Positions 1 to 31,757 of a DNA stretch of 31,757 nt are shown here, piece by piece. Numbering within the stretch: the first letter of the stretch is position 1; the number at the start of each line of letters is the position of its first letter. The position numbers and the translations under genes were made by a program. Below the pieces are notes generated by a model, which was not told the DNA's origin, did not search any database, and saw nothing but the letters and a program-made list of their open reading frames with translations. Location: IMG/VR virus record IMGVR_UViG_3300006409_000018, positions 1 to 31,757 of that record. One strand, written 5' to 3'. Source of the DNA: a virus.

Positions 1-99
1 GTATATAGTAGGTCATTTCTCTCTCCCCGGCTTAATAACTGCTTTGATGATCGGGACTGGTTTTATCCGGTACTTCGCCATTAACAAGAATATTACTAA
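1..99. repeat. Left copy of 99-bp terminal direct repeat
   Basis: These 99 bases are identical to 31659-31757. A perfect terminal overlap of a typical assembler k-mer length is the usual sign of a circular (or circularly permuted) molecule, so the two copies are probably one locus. It holds the end of the PrsW-like gene and the first codons of the tail hub gene, which overlap by an ATGA when the ends are joined. Confidence 0.95.
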
Positions 100-594
100 T
101 GCTGTTATGGCGGGTAGGAATAACCAATAATAATATAATGTTGCGTTAAACGCCGAGTAATTCCAGAAGGCGTGCAGCCCAATAGTGACTATGATACTGT
201 ATATATTAAATCTGTACTGCCACCTAATATACCAGAATATTAAGTGCCCAACCAGGAGGAGCCTGAGGAGAACAATGTATAAAACTAGTTGCCCCCACCA
301 ATTCATGCCATATGCCAAGGCCTCATATAAGGTGACGAGGATCGGGATAGACACACTTTTAATAATGTTGTATCTGAAGAGGTATTCCCCTACAGTTTTT
401 ACCAGTTCCTCGATGACAGGAGCGACGACAACAATCATGAGGGCGAGACGCCACTCATAATCCAACTCCAAATACTCCCTAAACAAGTCATTATATATAG
501 TCATCTCTATCAAAATTATGGACCATAGTATCAAACCTAGCATGATCCACCATTCAATCCACTTCTTCACCAGGTCCTCGATTACTTGAGCCAT
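13..594 (-). CDS. PrsW-like intramembrane protease (M82/CPBP-like)
   Basis: A 193-residue membrane protein with about six hydrophobic segments. The sequence shows EELVK (EExxK) near residue 62, an R-x5-H in LRLLLVGH near residue 111, and LHAFWNYS near residue 140. This order matches PrsW-family intramembrane proteases (M82), related to CPBP/CAAX proteases; in PrsW the glutamates and late histidine are in the active site. It lies in the leftward tail operon, overlapping the upstream gene by 13 bp and the tail hub start by an ATGA across the circle junction. Its role is unknown; possibilities are lysis, receptor modification, or cleavage of a membrane anti-sigma-like or superinfection factor. 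The family call is fairly firm, the role is not. Confidence 0.7.
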   Translation of the reverse strand: MAQVIEDLVKKWIEWWIMLGLILWSIILIEMTIYNDLFREYLELDYEWRLALMIVVVAPVIEELVKTVGEYLFRYNIIKSVSIPILVTLYEALAYGMNWWGQLVLYIVLLRLLLVGHLIFWYIRWQYRFNIYSIIVTIGLHAFWNYSAFNATLYYYWLFLPAITALVIFLLMAKYRIKPVPIIKAVIKPGREK

Positions 595-3655: not shown

Positions 3656-3694
3656 TTTGTGTCAATACTAAATTTTTGTGTCAGAATATAAAAT
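3655..3694 (-). promoter_or_regulatory. Promoter and paired operator of the tape-measure operon
   Basis: On the minus strand a TATA box (TTTTATATT, 3685-3693) is followed by CTGACACAA (3684-3676) and TTGACACAA (3665-3657), exactly 19 bp apart, then the ATG at 3655. The predicted start of transcription falls on or near the second copy, as expected for repression by occlusion. The same motif recurs at five other promoters. Confidence 0.7.
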
Positions 3695-3730
3695 TATCCT
3701 TACATTATTTAGTAACTATGTAAGATAAAC

Positions 3731-3770
3731 ATTATAAATATCAAGATACAATTGTTACAATTGATACAAG
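3731..3770 (+). promoter_or_regulatory. Promoter and triple 9-bp operator of the fibre operon
   Basis: A TATA box (ATTATAAATA, 3731-3740) is followed by three head-to-tail 9-bp units: AAGATACAA (3743), TTGTTACAA (3752) and TTGATACAA (3761), ending one base before the ATG at 3771. They fit the consensus TTGANACAA, here at 9-bp instead of 19-bp spacing. The leader would be only about 10 nt. Confidence 0.7.
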
Positions 3771-8295: not shown

Positions 8296-8369
8296 TTGTC
8301 ACAAACGAAATTTCTGATAGATTTATATATTTTTGACACAATTTTTTATAATTGATAAAAATGACACAG
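8296..8369 (+). promoter_or_regulatory. Promoter and operators of the replication operon
   Basis: Upstream TTGTCACAA (8296-8304), then TATA box ATTTATATAT (8321-8330), TTGACACAA (8333-8341), TTGATAAAA (8352-8360; 19 bp on) and ATGACACAG (8361-8369; 9 bp on, overlapping the start codon). Transcription should begin near 8352, leaving a leader of about 10 nt. Confidence 0.7.
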
Positions 8370-11417: not shown

Positions 11418-11540
11418 CTTTTCAATTCGAGTGAAAAGTTACTGGAAAGTAAATGAAAAGTTTAGGCGGGTTATTTTGGGTGATTTGGCTCAGGAGAACG
11501 CCCCAATTTCCGAAAAGTATCTTTTCAACTTTTCACCGCG
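11418..11540. repeat. Inverted-pair site A with TGAAAAG iterons (origin or recombination candidate)
   Basis: A non-coding stretch between the ATPase and the next gene. TGAAAAG occurs at 11432 and 11454, and its complement at 11418, 11521 and 11529. The left arm 11441-11469 (29 bp) is a perfect inverted copy of 23173-23201, and the right arm 11493-11535 matches 23107-23149 inverted with about 7 mismatches in 43. The 23-bp centre (11470-11492) is in the same orientation as at site B, hence flipped relative to its arms. Placement next to a replication ATPase suggests an origin. Confidence 0.7.
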
Positions 11541-15918: not shown

Positions 15919-15966
15919 TTGGGTATCACCAATCTGGGTATTACCAAAACCAATATATAAATATTT
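15919..15966 (-). promoter_or_regulatory. Promoter with two 15-bp tandem operators
   Basis: On the minus strand a TATA box (AATATTTATATATT, 15966-15953) is followed by TTGGTAATACCCA and TTGGTGATACCCA, 15 bp apart (15947-15935 and 15932-15920), ending next to the ATG at 15918. The motif differs from TTGANACAA, so a second regulator is expected; the RHH protein encoded by the next gene is the nearest candidate. Confidence 0.6.
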
Positions 15967-15995
15967 TTTACACAAACATGTCAAAAATGATTGGT

Positions 15996-16520
15996 TTATT
16001 TATATTTTTTGGGGGATTCATACCACGCAGGCCGCAGCGTCTTCCTATACACCATCAACCCAAGACGCTCCAACTCCCTAATAAACTGACGGGTCTTCCA
16101 CAACGGCGGCTCAGGCAATCTATTATAATAATTATCATACCCGACAAAGACGAATTCAGGCGAAAGATTATATATCATGGTAAGGAGAGTAGGTAATTCA
16201 AAAACAAGTATAGGTTCAACACTAACAAATTTCCGTGGATGCCTTAACATCCGCATCGCATTATAACGATTATGTGGTAAAGGAGCATCAGTATATATCC
16301 GTGGATAATTAGTTTCAAGGGTAACCCCTAAGATCATGTTCTCAGTAAATAGGTCTTGGAATAACAGGTATCTCTCGGGATTCTTGGTTAAAAATAGGAA
16401 TGTAGCCTTACTACCACTATCACGTATTGCATCCAAGACTTTTTTTATCCATTCATCTGGAACCCAGTATCCCCATAAATCCCCCATGCTGGTTACAAAT
16501 ATAGTGCCGCTCTTAGGCAC
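15996..16520 (-). CDS. Gp37/Gp68-like protein (DUF5131), N-terminally shortened
   Basis: A 174-residue frame opening at GTG 16520. It matches the C-terminal two thirds of the phage Gp37/Gp68 family: IFVTSMGDLWGYWVPDEWIKKVLDAI, FLFLTKNPERYL, MILGVTLET, KFVSVEPIL and FVFVGYDNYY. Full-length members start with a WNP-x-TGC-x-C-x2-C cluster region that could bind iron-sulfur; that region is absent here. The same frame is open upstream to 16553 and encodes PPRLWPERLKK, which also fits the family, and joins by one base shift to a short ORF with a good ribosome site (16513-16593). So the gene is either frameshifted, broken or shifted during translation. Function of the family is unknown (radical-SAM-like suggestions exist). 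Confidence 0.65.
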   Translation of the reverse strand: MPKSGTIFVTSMGDLWGYWVPDEWIKKVLDAIRDSGSKATFLFLTKNPERYLLFQDLFTENMILGVTLETNYPRIYTDAPLPHNRYNAMRMLRHPRKFVSVEPILVFELPTLLTMIYNLSPEFVFVGYDNYYNRLPEPPLWKTRQFIRELERLGLMVYRKTLRPAWYESPKKYK

Positions 16521-16593
16521 CTTTTTTAACCTCTCCGGCCAAAGCCGGGGGGGTCATTATCACTAGATTATAACCAATCCACACCTCACTCAT
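16513..16593 (-). pseudogene. 5' fragment of the Gp37/Gp68-like gene in another frame
   Basis: ATG 16593 has a strong GAGAGGTGA ribosome site and encodes 26 residues (MSEVWIGYNLVIMTP...). At a run of seven C (plus-strand G 16547-16553) a +1 shift would continue as ...VIMTPRLWPERLKKVPKSG, which aligns with the family segment before 'IFVNSM'. It is therefore probably the true start of the downstream gene, separated by a frameshift or a sequencing error in the homopolymer. Confidence 0.55.
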
Positions 16594-16599
16594 ATTCGT

Positions 16600-16865
16600 A
16601 TCACCTCTCCCCCGACGGGGAGGATACGGGAGAACCGGGCGCATCCTCTCTCATTCCCATAGGGTTGGCGCCCGGCGGGACGGGGCATCGCTGTGGTGAT
16701 ACAGCAACATCCGCCTATCCCCCCCGCCGTCTAGGGAATGTGTGGGGCGGGTTGGGACCAGCACCGCGTCGGGGGCCGGTTGACTGAGCCCACCGAGTCA
16801 GCCGGCCATTACCCTCCTACCGCCATTGGAGGCACCCGGACGGCGTGGCCACCCGTCTCCCCCAT
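16600..16865 (-). ncRNA. GC-rich structured RNA, probable leader of the Gp37/Gp68-like gene
   Basis: About 265 bp with far higher G+C than the rest and no convincing ORF. Perfect stems: 16607-16612/16617-16622 (tetraloop), 16635-16642/16668-16675 (8 bp), 16690-16694/16701-16705, 16774-16785/16796-16807 (12 bp with one G-U), 16813-16817/16828-16832, and an enclosing stem 16725-16731/16839-16845. In thermophiles such GC islands usually mark structured RNA. The minus strand is favoured: a TATA-like ATAAAAATAT lies upstream near 16866-16875, and the last hairpin abuts the GAGGTGA ribosome site at about 16600. It does not match tRNA, SRP RNA or RNase P RNA features that I know. Confidence 0.6.
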
Positions 16866-16873
16866 ATTTTTAT

Positions 16874-17071
16874 TCACAGCATCGCCACCTCTATTGATAC
16901 TATTATTAGGTATACTAGGACTGATATGATTAGGAAGACGAGTTTTTCCCAGAATGTCGCTGGGAGTAGGAACCACCATAGAAGCATTATTGGGACTAGT
17001 GGTATGAGTACGAATATGACTATGATTATTATGATGATTGTTATATTGTTTATTACCTCAACTGGGTCCAT
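16874..17071 (-). CDS. Small two-span membrane protein
   Basis: A 65-residue protein that is almost entirely hydrophobic: segment one about residues 9-36 (ITIIIIIIVIFVLIPLVPIMLLWW), segment two about 45-63 (LVFLIISVLVYLIIVSIE). GGTGA precedes the ATG by about 9 bp. It follows the preceding gene by 5 bp in the leftward operon. Function unknown. Confidence 0.6.
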   Translation of the reverse strand: MDPVEVINNITIIIIIIVIFVLIPLVPIMLLWWFLLPATFWEKLVFLIISVLVYLIIVSIEVAML

Positions 17072-17076
17072 TTTTT

Positions 17077-17298
17077 TTATTCACCTACTCGTTGGGCGAT
17101 AAACATTATTTTATACAATTTGTTTTTGTCTTTGAATTTGAATTCAACTGTGGTTGTAGTGACCTTTAGAACTATCCCTTTTCTCTGCAGTATCTTATTG
17201 AAGTCATCGATTAATCCTTGTTCTTGTGCCTCGTTGAATCCCTCGACGATCTTCCATATCAATTCACGATACAATATGTCTCTATCCTGAGAAAACAA
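17077..17298 (-). CDS. Small protein, unknown
   Basis: A 73-residue protein: a helical first half (YRELIWKIVEGFNEAQEQGLIDDFNKIL) and a beta-hairpin second half (GIVLKVTTTTVEFKFKDKNKLYKIMFI). It begins 17 bp inside the end of the previous gene, so it is coupled to it. No family recognised. Confidence 0.6.
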   Translation of the reverse strand: MFSQDRDILYRELIWKIVEGFNEAQEQGLIDDFNKILQRKGIVLKVTTTTVEFKFKDKNKLYKIMFIAQRVGE

Positions 17299-17644
17299 TT
17301 GTTTTCACCCCGGTTGGTTTATAATTATGTTTTAATATCTCGTTTTTTTCGAGATCGGTAATCATCTTATGAAGCAATTTTATCTCTGTGTTATCTATAA
17401 AATAATTAGTGTTTGCCTTCCAAACAACATCGAGATTTGCGCCCTTTAATACATTAATTATCACAAGCCTAGCACTCGGTGGATCCTTCGGGTCAAAGGC
17501 TATAATAATGAAGTCTCCACGTTTCATTGTAGGATGTAAACGATCACGTATTTTCTCTAGAAATTCTGGGTAACTACCTGCTTGCACAACCGATATCTTC
17601 TTATACATACCGCTATACCACCTATACACAACAAACTTAAACAA
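17282..17644 (-). CDS. Small protein, unknown
   Basis: A 120-residue alpha/beta protein (MFKFVVYRWYSGMYKK, RGDFIIIAFDPKDPPSARLVIINVLKGANLDVVW, then a helix LLHKMITDLEKNEIL). It overlaps both neighbours (8 and 17 bp). I see no catalytic motif. By location in the accessory operon it may be a host-interaction factor. Confidence 0.6.
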   Translation of the reverse strand: MFKFVVYRWYSGMYKKISVVQAGSYPEFLEKIRDRLHPTMKRGDFIIIAFDPKDPPSARLVIINVLKGANLDVVWKANTNYFIDNTEIKLLHKMITDLEKNEILKHNYKPTGVKTIVFSG

Positions 17645-17972
17645 TAGTCCTCACCTCCACAGGAATTTTTACACCATTCTTAACAAGCAGGTTATATGCC
17701 CGGCGTCTGTGCTGCCGTCCCCTGCCCCGGCTGCATGGCTGCCGCCCGATAATTAGGTACCAGATTATTAGGTGGGGCTCGCTGCCCCGGATGGCCTGTG
17801 CGAGGCTATGGCGCTGAAGGGCTTGGCGGGTGTGGAAGTATTTTTTGCAGATGGGGCAGTAGTCGGCGTTGTATATGTCTGGGTGCTTGGCTCTTATGTG
17901 GATGAATAATCCACCGACGTTATCGGATTTGAATTGGCAGCCGAGGAAGGGGCACTCGATTTTCTCATACAT
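17637..17972 (-). CDS. C2H2 zinc-finger protein
   Basis: A 111-residue protein. Finger one: Cys7-x4-Cys12 ... His25-x4-His30 (CPFLGCQFKSDNVGGLFIHIRAKH). Finger two: Cys39-x2-Cys42 (CPICKKYF) with His55 and possibly His67. A very basic tail follows (SRGRGRQHRRRAYNLLVKNG). Such fingers are typical of archaeal virus DNA-binding proteins. It overlaps the upstream gene by 8 bp. Probably a transcription factor acting on virus or host DNA. Confidence 0.75.
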   Translation of the reverse strand: MYEKIECPFLGCQFKSDNVGGLFIHIRAKHPDIYNADYCPICKKYFHTRQALQRHSLAQAIRGSEPHLIIWYLIIGRQPCSRGRGRQHRRRAYNLLVKNGVKIPVEVRTIV

Positions 17973-18435
17973 CCCAAATCACCTTATAAACAAATAACAA
18001 TATGCCTAATCCAACCCCCACCACAAATGCGAGGTTGGATATAACCATTCCATTCTGGATATAAACATCACGAGGAGTATTCAAAATGAATAACCCCTCG
18101 TAGATGCCATAAACTAGGTTGCGTGTGAAGATGGGGAAGGCGGCGGCCGCCTCTTCCACATCATCCCACAAATCCCAGATAATAATTATTAGCATGATTA
18201 TTGCTGCACCGATCCCCCCACCAAAACTGACTATGAGGGGGCCGAGGGGATGCGTGGGCATCTGGGTCCAGACTACCCCTGCGCCGAATGGGGTTTTGAT
18301 TATGTATCCGTCGCCGCCGAGTAGTCGGAGTATGGTTAGGTGGCTCCACTCGTGTATGCCGGTGTCAACAAATAGAAATATTGTTAGGCAGAATGCGTAT
18401 TCAGCGATGGATATAAAAAGTTGTTTGGGGTTCAC
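17965..18435 (-). CDS. Membrane metalloprotease-like protein (M50/HExxH)
   Basis: A 156-residue protein with a hydrophobic first segment (about 8-25) running into GIHEWSHLTILRLLGG: His28-Glu29-x2-His32 in a membrane setting, as in M50 (site-2 type) proteases and their DUF3267-like relatives. Further membrane spans lie about 73-98, 112-125 and 134-153. The family's later Asp ligand is not clearly placed, so activity is uncertain. It overlaps both neighbours in the operon. With the PrsW-like gene this is the second membrane protease of the virus. Confidence 0.62.
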   Translation of the reverse strand: MNPKQLFISIAEYAFCLTIFLFVDTGIHEWSHLTILRLLGGDGYIIKTPFGAGVVWTQMPTHPLGPLIVSFGGGIGAAIIMLIIIIWDLWDDVEEAAAAFPIFTRNLVYGIYEGLFILNTPRDVYIQNGMVISNLAFVVGVGLGILLFVYKVIWDV

Positions 18436-19180: not shown

Positions 19181-19222
19181 TTTACTCAATATAATTGTAT
19201 TGTTACTAAACTATATAAATGT
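19181..19222 (-). promoter_or_regulatory. Promoter and degenerate operators of the leftward accessory operon
   Basis: Read leftward: TATA box CATTTATATAGTT (19222-19210), then TAGTAACAA (19208-19200) and TTGAGTAAA (19189-19181), exactly 19 bp apart, then the ATG at 19179. The copies are weaker matches to TTGANACAA, but spacing and position are the same as at the other promoters. Confidence 0.6.
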
Positions 19223-19227
19223 TATGT

Positions 19228-19283
19228 TTGAAACATCTGTTTTATTTATATGGTTTTGAAACAAAATAATTATATTGATGACA
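19228..19283 (+). promoter_or_regulatory. Promoter and operators of the portal operon
   Basis: TTGAAACAT (19228-19236), TATA box TTTATTTATA (19241-19250), TTGAAACAA (19256-19264) and TTGATGACA (19275-19283, over the start codon). The last two are 19 bp apart. Together with the opposite promoter this forms a divergent control region of about 100 bp. Confidence 0.68.
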
Positions 19284-23102: not shown

Positions 23103-23215
23103 GAAATGGAAAGTTGAAAAGATATCTTTTGGGAATTACGGGGTTCTCCGGCGTTATTTTAGGTAATCTGAGCCGCCTAAACTTTTCATTTACTTTCCAG
23201 TTATTTTTCAGGGTT
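23103..23215. repeat. Inverted-pair site B (partner of site A)
   Basis: Inverted relative to site A. 23173-23201 is a perfect 29-bp inverted match to 11441-11469, and 23107-23149 matches 11493-11535 inverted. The centre 23150-23172 reads GGCGTTATTTTAGGTAATCT..., in the same plus-strand sense as site A's centre, so it is flipped relative to the arms. It holds TGAAAAG at 23115 and its complement at 23182. It lies just before the head operon promoter. Confidence 0.7.
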
Positions 23216-23229
23216 TTTGGAAAGTTTAG

Positions 23230-23296
23230 TTGTTTTTAAAATGTTTCATTTGAAACAATATAGTGCTTTTGACACAAATAATCCTTATTGGGGTGT
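23230..23296 (+). promoter_or_regulatory. Promoter and paired operator of the head operon
   Basis: TATA-like TTTTTAAAA (23234-23242), then TTGAAACAA (23250-23258) and TTGACACAA (23269-23277), exactly 19 bp apart. GGGGTG near 23290 is the likely ribosome site for GTG 23304. Because these elements lie in it, the open frame from 23217 is not used as the start of the protease. Confidence 0.68.
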
Positions 23297-30070: not shown

Positions 30071-31674
30071 CCATAATCAGCAAAACCATATTTACTATCA
30101 GCGTCATCATAGATGTAGGTGCCACTAGTTTTTGTCTTGACTGTGATGCTGTCACTCTGGGTAACCGGATCCGTAACAGTAACATATTTATTCAACTCAG
30201 TCCGCAACACATCAATATCCTTATGCTTAATTTTCCTGATCTCACTATAGAACTCCCGTAGAACCTGTTCGAGATACGCCTTCTCCGGACCAAGATCCAG
30301 TTCAACCGTTACATACTTGTTTACCCCACCCTCCAACTCTATCCTAACGGCTTTTACTAGATATTGGTTATTCACGTTAAACTTAGTGCTGTTTATAGTT
30401 ATCATCTCACCCGGCCTAGGCACAGAAGCAGAATAAACAACTATAGAACCGAAATCACTCCTAATATTCTTACGCTCATTAAGAATCTGTGTAGCGAGGG
30501 TCCTTGCGGTACGCCTATCCTTTATACTCTCATCCCGCACAACAATCTCCCTGCCACCATACAAACTAACACTATCCTCATCACTAACCTTCACAATCAC
30601 CGGCACACCATAATACGTTTTATACGCACCCGCCCCCGTCCCCACCGTCCAATTCACGCCATCCGTGGAATACGCATATTCACCACTAACACCATAATAC
30701 CACCTGTAATAATTACTAGCATCCCCCGTAAGATCAAGAACAATCCAATACTTCTGCCCCGGAATCAACTGTGCAGAGGCGCTGGTCGGGTACCACCCCG
30801 CAGCACCGAGGTAGTTGCGGTTGTAGGTGAAGTAGACGAGTACCTCGCCGGTTGGCTCGCCATTGTTGTCCCTAACTATTTTGCCTGTTAGGTCTGGTGG
30901 TAAACCTATTTTTTCTAGGTATAGTGATATTTGCCGTAGGCCTCCTCTGTCGGGAGTGAAACTCGTTGCCAGGTAGTATTGGTTTGTTTGGTATGTGCCG
31001 CCCGTCACATCGGTTTGTATTTGGTCTTCGAAGTAGTCTTCGCTGCCAACTACATATACAATGTTTTTCAGTTCTTCGAGGGCTTGTATGAAGCCGACGC
31101 TGGGTTTAAAGTCTGTATCTGTAAAAACCAGCCCCGAGTCTCTGGATCCTTTTATTCTGAGGTTGATGTTGTTGTTGGTGTCTGGCTGGAGGTATGTTGC
31201 TGTTAGATCCATAATAGTTTTGAGGGCGTCATAGAGAGGGACATAATTAAAACTAATATTATCTAGAGTAATATCTGTTTCGTCGTATATGGGGGTCCAA
31301 GAAGTATACTTGGCTATTAGATCCTTGAAGATGTTTTCGGCCTGCCGGTATTGATATAATTCAGCCACTATCTTGTTTAGGGCTGTGGTGAAGAATTCTT
31401 CCCGGCCCTCCAGTCTAACCCTTTTCCTTAGGTTGCGGCCGATGATATTCTCGATTTTATCAACTACATATATATTGCGTGGTTGGCTTGGAGGGCTACT
31501 CGAATCTAAGTACAAAATAATTTTGTCTCCCGGGGAGATCTGGTTGAGTATATCCGTTTTTGCCTCGGCGCGAAACCTTATCAGATCCATACGTTCCTCT
31601 ACGGTGAACTGGTGGAAGTAACTTGTTAGATCTATGGCACCGGGCGTCTTCTCTATCCGTATATAGTAGGTCAT
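30067..31674 (-). CDS. Tail hub protein with inserted adhesin domain
   Basis: A 535-residue protein, last of the leftward tail operon across the circle junction. The N-terminal part (1-215: TVEERMDLIRFRAEAK, GDKIILYLDSS, YVVDKIENIIGRNLRKRVRLEGREE, LYDALKTIMDLTATYLQPD) fits phage hub proteins of the gp27/gpD type. An insert at about 235-350 (RGGLRQISLYLEKIGLPPDLTGKIV...LIPGQKYWIVLDLTGD) resembles domains that bind surfaces, and the final part returns to hub-like LATQILNERKNIRSDFGSIVVYSASVPRPGEMITI followed by a helix. Role: closing the tail tip and binding the host. There is a sharp codon switch near 30780. Confidence 0.72.
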   Translation of the reverse strand: MTYYIRIEKTPGAIDLTSYFHQFTVEERMDLIRFRAEAKTDILNQISPGDKIILYLDSSSPPSQPRNIYVVDKIENIIGRNLRKRVRLEGREEFFTTALNKIVAELYQYRQAENIFKDLIAKYTSWTPIYDETDITLDNISFNYVPLYDALKTIMDLTATYLQPDTNNNINLRIKGSRDSGLVFTDTDFKPSVGFIQALEELKNIVYVVGSEDYFEDQIQTDVTGGTYQTNQYYLATSFTPDRGGLRQISLYLEKIGLPPDLTGKIVRDNNGEPTGEVLVYFTYNRNYLGAAGWYPTSASAQLIPGQKYWIVLDLTGDASNYYRWYYGVSGEYAYSTDGVNWTVGTGAGAYKTYYGVPVIVKVSDEDSVSLYGGREIVVRDESIKDRRTARTLATQILNERKNIRSDFGSIVVYSASVPRPGEMITINSTKFNVNNQYLVKAVRIELEGGVNKYVTVELDLGPEKAYLEQVLREFYSEIRKIKHKDIDVLRTELNKYVTVTDPVTQSDSITVKTKTSGTYIYDDADSKYGFADYG

Positions 31675-31757
31675 TTCTCTCTCCCCGGCTTAATAACTGC
31701 TTTGATGATCGGGACTGGTTTTATCCGGTACTTCGCCATTAACAAGAATATTACTAA
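31659..31757. repeat. Right copy of 99-bp terminal direct repeat
   Basis: Exact copy of positions 1-99. Removing one copy gives a circle of about 31,658 bp and joins the tail hub gene (start at 31674) directly behind the PrsW-like gene. A genuine short direct terminal repeat on a linear genome is possible but less likely. Confidence 0.95.

Follow-up and report, generated by a model that had tools for sequence, protein, structure and literature searches.

Within a run of minus-strand genes, a GC-rich island separates a 65-aa gene (16874-17071) from a 26-codon ORF (16513-16593) that overlaps a gene of the DUF5131 (Gp37/Gp68-like) family. The window, by which we mean the whole stretch of DNA that was analysed, is the entire virus record of 31757 bases, and the features of the locus are the following:

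15996-16520, minus strand: C-terminal part of a DUF5131 (Gp37/Gp68-like) protein, with homology continuing in frame upstream to 16550
16513-16593, minus strand: 26-codon ORF behind GAGGTGAT, its end overlapping the GTG of the 174-aa DUF5131 gene
16600-16607, minus strand: ribosome site GAGGTGAT, seen in the sequence and predicted to be open
16600-16865, no strand assigned: GC-rich non-coding island, GC 0.68
16606-16740, minus strand: 3′ domain of the predicted minus-strand fold, z -3.02
16607-16622, no strand assigned: perfect 6-bp hairpin CTCCCC-loop-GGGGAG, excluded by the long stem of the 3′ domain
16746-16858, minus strand: 5′ domain of the predicted minus-strand fold, in which CGGGU/ACCCG closes a long stem, and a junction has two hairpins
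16863-16877, minus strand: weak TATA-like box, ranked 1640 of 63484
16874-17071, minus strand: gene upstream of the island, for a 65-aa protein that looks hydrophobic by eye

The composition of the island sets it apart from the rest of the genome. Its GC of 0.68 (16601-16866) is the highest of any 266-base segment in the window, whose mean is 0.444, and the other 12 gaps longer than 60 bp range from 0.19 to 0.54; the description of the island as a GC-rich stretch in an A/T-richer genome, made earlier from the letters alone, is borne out. The gap that holds it (16521-16873) covers 353 bases with a GC of 0.61. Three further gaps of 320-463 bases in the automatic list are mostly covered by ORFs of 111-237 aa, so that 16521-16873 is the largest convincing non-coding gap. 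The same sequence-only reading had seen no convincing ORF here, and we agree. Indeed, the ORFs of at least 50 aa that touch the island have total codon-usage scores of 0.1 and 2.7, with -1.1 for 16845-17102, against 15-31 for the neighbouring genes, the zinc-finger gene 17637-17972 excepted (1.4). A conserved protein reading through the island was looked for and none was found, as eight six-frame pieces gave no Pfam match at E<=1 (a ninth, 18 residues long, was not long enough to search). A short or atypical stretch of coding sequence could be sought in the two ORFs of 56-63 aa that cross part of the island, but their codon scores are about 0, they have no Pfam match and no ribosome site was seen for them. 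Since no reading frame looks coding, we rejected this explanation, which is very improbable.

The record carries an identical 99-base direct repeat at 1-99 and 31659-31757, as a circular or circularly assembled genome would, and is probably complete and circular, with ~31658 bases. The window encodes a terminase and an integrase together with a portal, a head protease and a major head protein, which by gene content make this a tailed and probably temperate virus. Its terminase reaches at most 42% identity to others when viral contigs and genomes are scanned by alignment, and 44% when the class is searched; its best relatives are those of Bathyarchaeia. Single-protein scans of viral contigs, with the terminase and neighbour proteins as bait, yielded no near relatives of the virus, no close relative is among the eight contigs whose DNA is 67-85% similar to the window over short stretches, and the terminase-bearing loci have at most three of the window ORFs of at least 50 aa in common with it. 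The IVYWREL fraction is 0.455 over 42 genes, a value possibly inflated by membrane proteins, and 0.441 over the genes longer than about 200 aa; an IVYWREL formula gives estimated growth temperatures of 91 C for the 42 genes and 79 C for the long ones. With an (E+K)/(Q+H) of 2.95, the predicted proteome is hyperthermophile-like and suggests growth near 80-90 C. The host is probably a heat-loving archaeon, and the link to Bathyarchaeia is likewise probable. Among the tailed viruses of Bathyarchaeia, Fuxivirus, from hot springs, is similar in length (31982 bp against 31757 bases) and has a type IV cas cluster, according to the available part of PMC10848311, in which a text search did not find the term 'non-coding'.

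The DUF5131 gene lacks its beginning. Its 174 aa, read from a GTG start, are 47-53% identical to Bathyarchaeia proteins (20 loci), and the alignment runs past the listed start to 16550, in a frame offset from that of the 26-codon ORF, and then ends. The homologues have about 45 more N-terminal residues, with WNPxxGCxxxCxYC, and a profile of 12 N-termini did not find this half in any of the window's six frames (best E 0.8). As predicted from its genes, the virus carries a DUF5131 protein that is without the N-terminal CX3CX2C (radical-SAM-like) half. An intron inside the gene was rejected because no first exon was found upstream in the window (nothing at E<0.8 with the N-terminal profile, six frames). 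Judged by eye, some Bathyarchaeia DUF5131 homologues (L156, L163, L166 and L164, L171) have apparent inteins at two places, before the last cysteine of CX3CX2C (..HN/CWAR) and before the conserved DMGDMWG (..SHN/CDMGDMWG).

Does the island belong to a known family? Rfam gave no match at gathering scores, the better of two weak matches, to a miRNA model, scoring 20.8 bits where the gathering score is 88, and no tRNA or tmRNA was found. The earlier reading had likewise seen no match to known tRNA, SRP or RNase P RNA features, and the known families held in Rfam (tRNA, tmRNA, SRP RNA, RNase P RNA, introns, ribozymes) were rejected for want of a match. An HDV-like ribozyme, searched for in 16500-16900 with a crude descriptor, was rejected too: the minus strand gave no match, the double-pseudoknot helix order being absent. 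On the plus strand the descriptor gave two overlapping matches starting at 16519, mostly outside the element.

Comparison of the island DNA with phages, plasmids, 256 Bathyarchaeia genomes and a 398-genome sample of the phylum produced short chance-level matches only. Weak matches occurred in 10 of the 256 genomes at E<=0.1 and in 4 of the 398 at E<=0.01, no more than chance, and the four best span 22-39 bases each, apparently within coding sequence. The exact pattern of the hairpin 16774-16807 had no match in viral contigs. Covariance models for the two minus-strand domains, built from a single sequence (two identical rows), recover the window itself at 138 and 167 bits; they found nothing beyond it in 30 sources (the window and 29 of ~190 loci from viruses and genomes), nor did the 256 genomes yield any match at E<=0.1, under strict filters and with no positive control. 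No homologue of the element was found in the collections searched, which may omit records very near the window, and its absence there is weak evidence. A multi-copy mobile element was rejected, with one copy in the window and none in the 256 Bathyarchaeia genomes. Little is known, as far as we are aware, about structured RNAs in archaeal viruses, and no title among the literature matches listed concerns an archaeal virus.

The hairpins that had drawn attention to the island are present, and their number is mostly what the composition gives. Four perfect non-overlapping hairpins with a stem of at least 6 are found, against a mean of 2.4 in shuffles that keep the dinucleotide content (29 of 200 reach four), and the single stem of at least 8 is equalled in 52 of 200. 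The predicted fold of 16590-16875 has a z of -2.17 on the minus strand (5 of 200 shuffles as stable) and -1.97 on the plus strand (7 of 200); for 16600-16865 the values are -1.89 (11 of 400) and -1.29 (46 of 400), respectively. The structure of the whole element is, in these predictions, barely beyond chance. The long-range stem that had been drawn as enclosing the island appears in the plus-strand fold, around most of the element, but is absent from the minus-strand fold. Taken separately, the 5′ domain (16746-16858) has a z of -1.19 on the minus and -2.99 on the plus strand (1 of 500 shuffles as stable), and the 3′ domain (16606-16740) -3.02 on the minus (4 of 500) and -1.31 on the plus strand, values that flatter the element because the domain bounds were picked after viewing the fold. 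As the 5′ domain favours the plus strand and the 3′ domain the minus, neither strand is consistent. A pseudoknot between the loop 16643-16667 and 16734-16740 (7 pairs) was rejected as within chance, 45 of 500 shuffles reaching it.

A scan of 1056 segments of 120 bases places the strongest z outside the element, at 18061-18180 on the minus strand (-7.29); the element's own segments reach -3.19, and one overlapping its left edge, 16501-16620 on the plus strand, -4.06. The strong fold at 18001-18180 (minus strand; -5.20 for 18001-18200) falls within the coding gene 17965-18435. When the folds were recalculated at 80 C, the two strands of the element rank first and second among 958 segments of 266 bases, with -44.9 kcal/mol against a mean of -8.2 (sd 6.2). 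This absolute stability is exceptional and is due to the GC content; a structural RNA in a hyperthermophile would have to fold as stably as is predicted here.

The TATA-like box that had been reported before the island on the minus strand turned out to be poor. With a hand-written BRE/TATA matrix, it ranks 1640 among 63484 positions and the plus-strand TATA-like site of the element 2823, and neither strand offers a convincing promoter for the element by this matrix. The highest-ranking sites of the window are in AT-rich gaps and, on the minus strand, at 15954-15968, just beyond the DUF5131 gene, and a good one is found at 19212-19226 (minus). Transcription of the island, if any, probably occurs by read-through from upstream of 19018. 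By eye, a possible stop for archaeal transcription, TATTTTTATT, is seen at the plus-strand end of the island (16866-16875).

The sequence-only reading had seen in the island a 5′ leader able to hide or expose the ribosome site of the Gp37/Gp68-like gene. The contact itself exists, as the first base of GAGGTGAT (16607-16600, minus) is the last base of the hairpin 16607-16622, an overlap of one base. GAGGTGAT serves the 26-codon ORF that overlaps the DUF5131 gene. In the predicted ensemble of 280 bases upstream and 60 downstream, however, calculated for 26 starts, the ribosome site of the 16593 start is the most unpaired of all at 37 C, with a mean of 0.69, and ranks fourth at 80 C, and hiding as the default state was rejected on this ground. 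The hairpin and the long stem using 16620-16633 are mutually exclusive, so that a switch is conceivable, in which alternative pairing of 16620-16633 would control the 26-codon ORF and DUF5131. Like translational riboswitches and leaders, the island is structured, lies immediately ahead of a ribosome site and allows two mutually exclusive stems to be drawn; unlike them, it has a ribosome site predicted to be open, no family match (no Rfam riboswitch in particular) and a truncated gene downstream. By the BRE/TATA matrix such a leader would lack a good promoter, the ORF served has only 26 codons, and the loss of the cysteine motif makes a riboswitch for such an enzyme less likely. We consider the leader explanation unlikely.

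A recombination scar, in which GC-rich foreign DNA was joined in as the N-terminal half of DUF5131 was lost and in which the RNA has no function, ranks close behind a structured RNA and is a tentative possibility. It is invited by the missing half of a gene beside a foreign-looking GC block: the DUF5131 homology ends 50 bases short of the island, at 16550, and the N-terminal half is nowhere in the window. Moreover, the structure mostly follows from the GC content, no homologue, and hence no sign of selection, was found, and TCTCCCCC is seen by eye at both edges (16606-16613 and 16856-16863), possibly by chance or as an insertion footprint. Yet no source sequence was found in the phages, plasmids, 256 Bathyarchaeia genomes and 398-genome phylum sample, and a useless gap of 353 bp would be unusual in so packed a genome. 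If the island is a scar, it cautions against taking GC-rich hairpins for RNA genes. The GC-rich inverted repeats in a non-coding gap, folding about equally well on both strands, could also act in DNA, as a replication origin or as a packaging or protein-binding site. Direct repeats of at least 10 bases are absent from 16500-16900, however, the island lies inside a minus-strand gene run and not at a divergent gap, and no homologue was found; a DNA element is quite improbable.

GC-rich intergenic islands in the AT-richer genomes of hyperthermophiles are often structured RNAs. In a GC screen of Pyrococcus abyssi, 51 of 73 GC-rich intergenic regions were known ncRNA genes, as given in the accessible part of PMC3124441. 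Given this prior and the hyperthermophile signature of the proteome, no other single explanation does better than a structured RNA, and we favour, with a probability of about 0.4, a GC-rich, heat-stable structured RNA specific to the virus lineage. The island resembles the ncRNA genes of that screen in being GC-rich, intergenic and devoid of ORFs, in a hyperthermophile-like genome and with a stable predicted fold, its GC standing far above that of the genome (0.68 against 0.444). It differs from them in belonging to a virus and not a cell, in having two folds on two strands and in being known here from sequence alone. GOLLD and ROOL, large phage-linked RNAs of several hundred bases, are likewise structured non-coding RNAs of viral genomes, but the island has no Rfam match and is much shorter.

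An RNA function is possible, and unproven. The island would probably be transcribed within the early block of minus-strand genes (19018 down to 15996) and then retained as a folded RNA or a folded mRNA segment. If this RNA is active, its likeliest task would be that of a stable scaffold binding a viral or host protein, because no hiding of the ribosome site is predicted. A free viral RNA, also raised in the sequence-only reading, is favoured because a GC island in a hyperthermophile-like genome is combined with a fold that survives 80 C in prediction; the z of the 3′ domain on the minus strand, that of the flanking genes, speaks for an RNA as well. Against it stand the whole-element fold, scarcely more stable than composition-matched shuffles, the opposite strands favoured by the two domains, the lack of a homologue in the collections searched and of a convincing promoter on either strand, and the truncated gene adjoining the island, which suits a recombination scar. 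Transcription, strand, ends and any molecular task of the RNA are inferred. That it represents a new RNA class of an uncultivated tailed virus, probably of Bathyarchaeia, made of a 113-base junction and a 135-base domain and acting as RNA during infection, appears rather doubtful. A working RNA would be a first such candidate in a Bathyarchaeia-linked virus, and would show that viral RNA genes of hot environments can be detected from their base composition alone.

Elsewhere in the window, 13-594 (minus) has a weak match, under the curated cut-off, to a PrsW-like intramembrane protease. A 104-base inverted duplicate, 77% alike, lies at 11432-11535 and 23107-23210; the latter copy, located in a gap and on the minus strand, duplicates the region around the start of the gene at 11453. 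Finally, TTGWNACAA occurs 11 times against 2.7 expected, a number reached in none of 100 shuffles, and clusters at divergent or AT-rich gene starts (3657-3769, 8296-8341, 19256-19264 and 23250-23277), where it is possibly the operator of a viral repressor.
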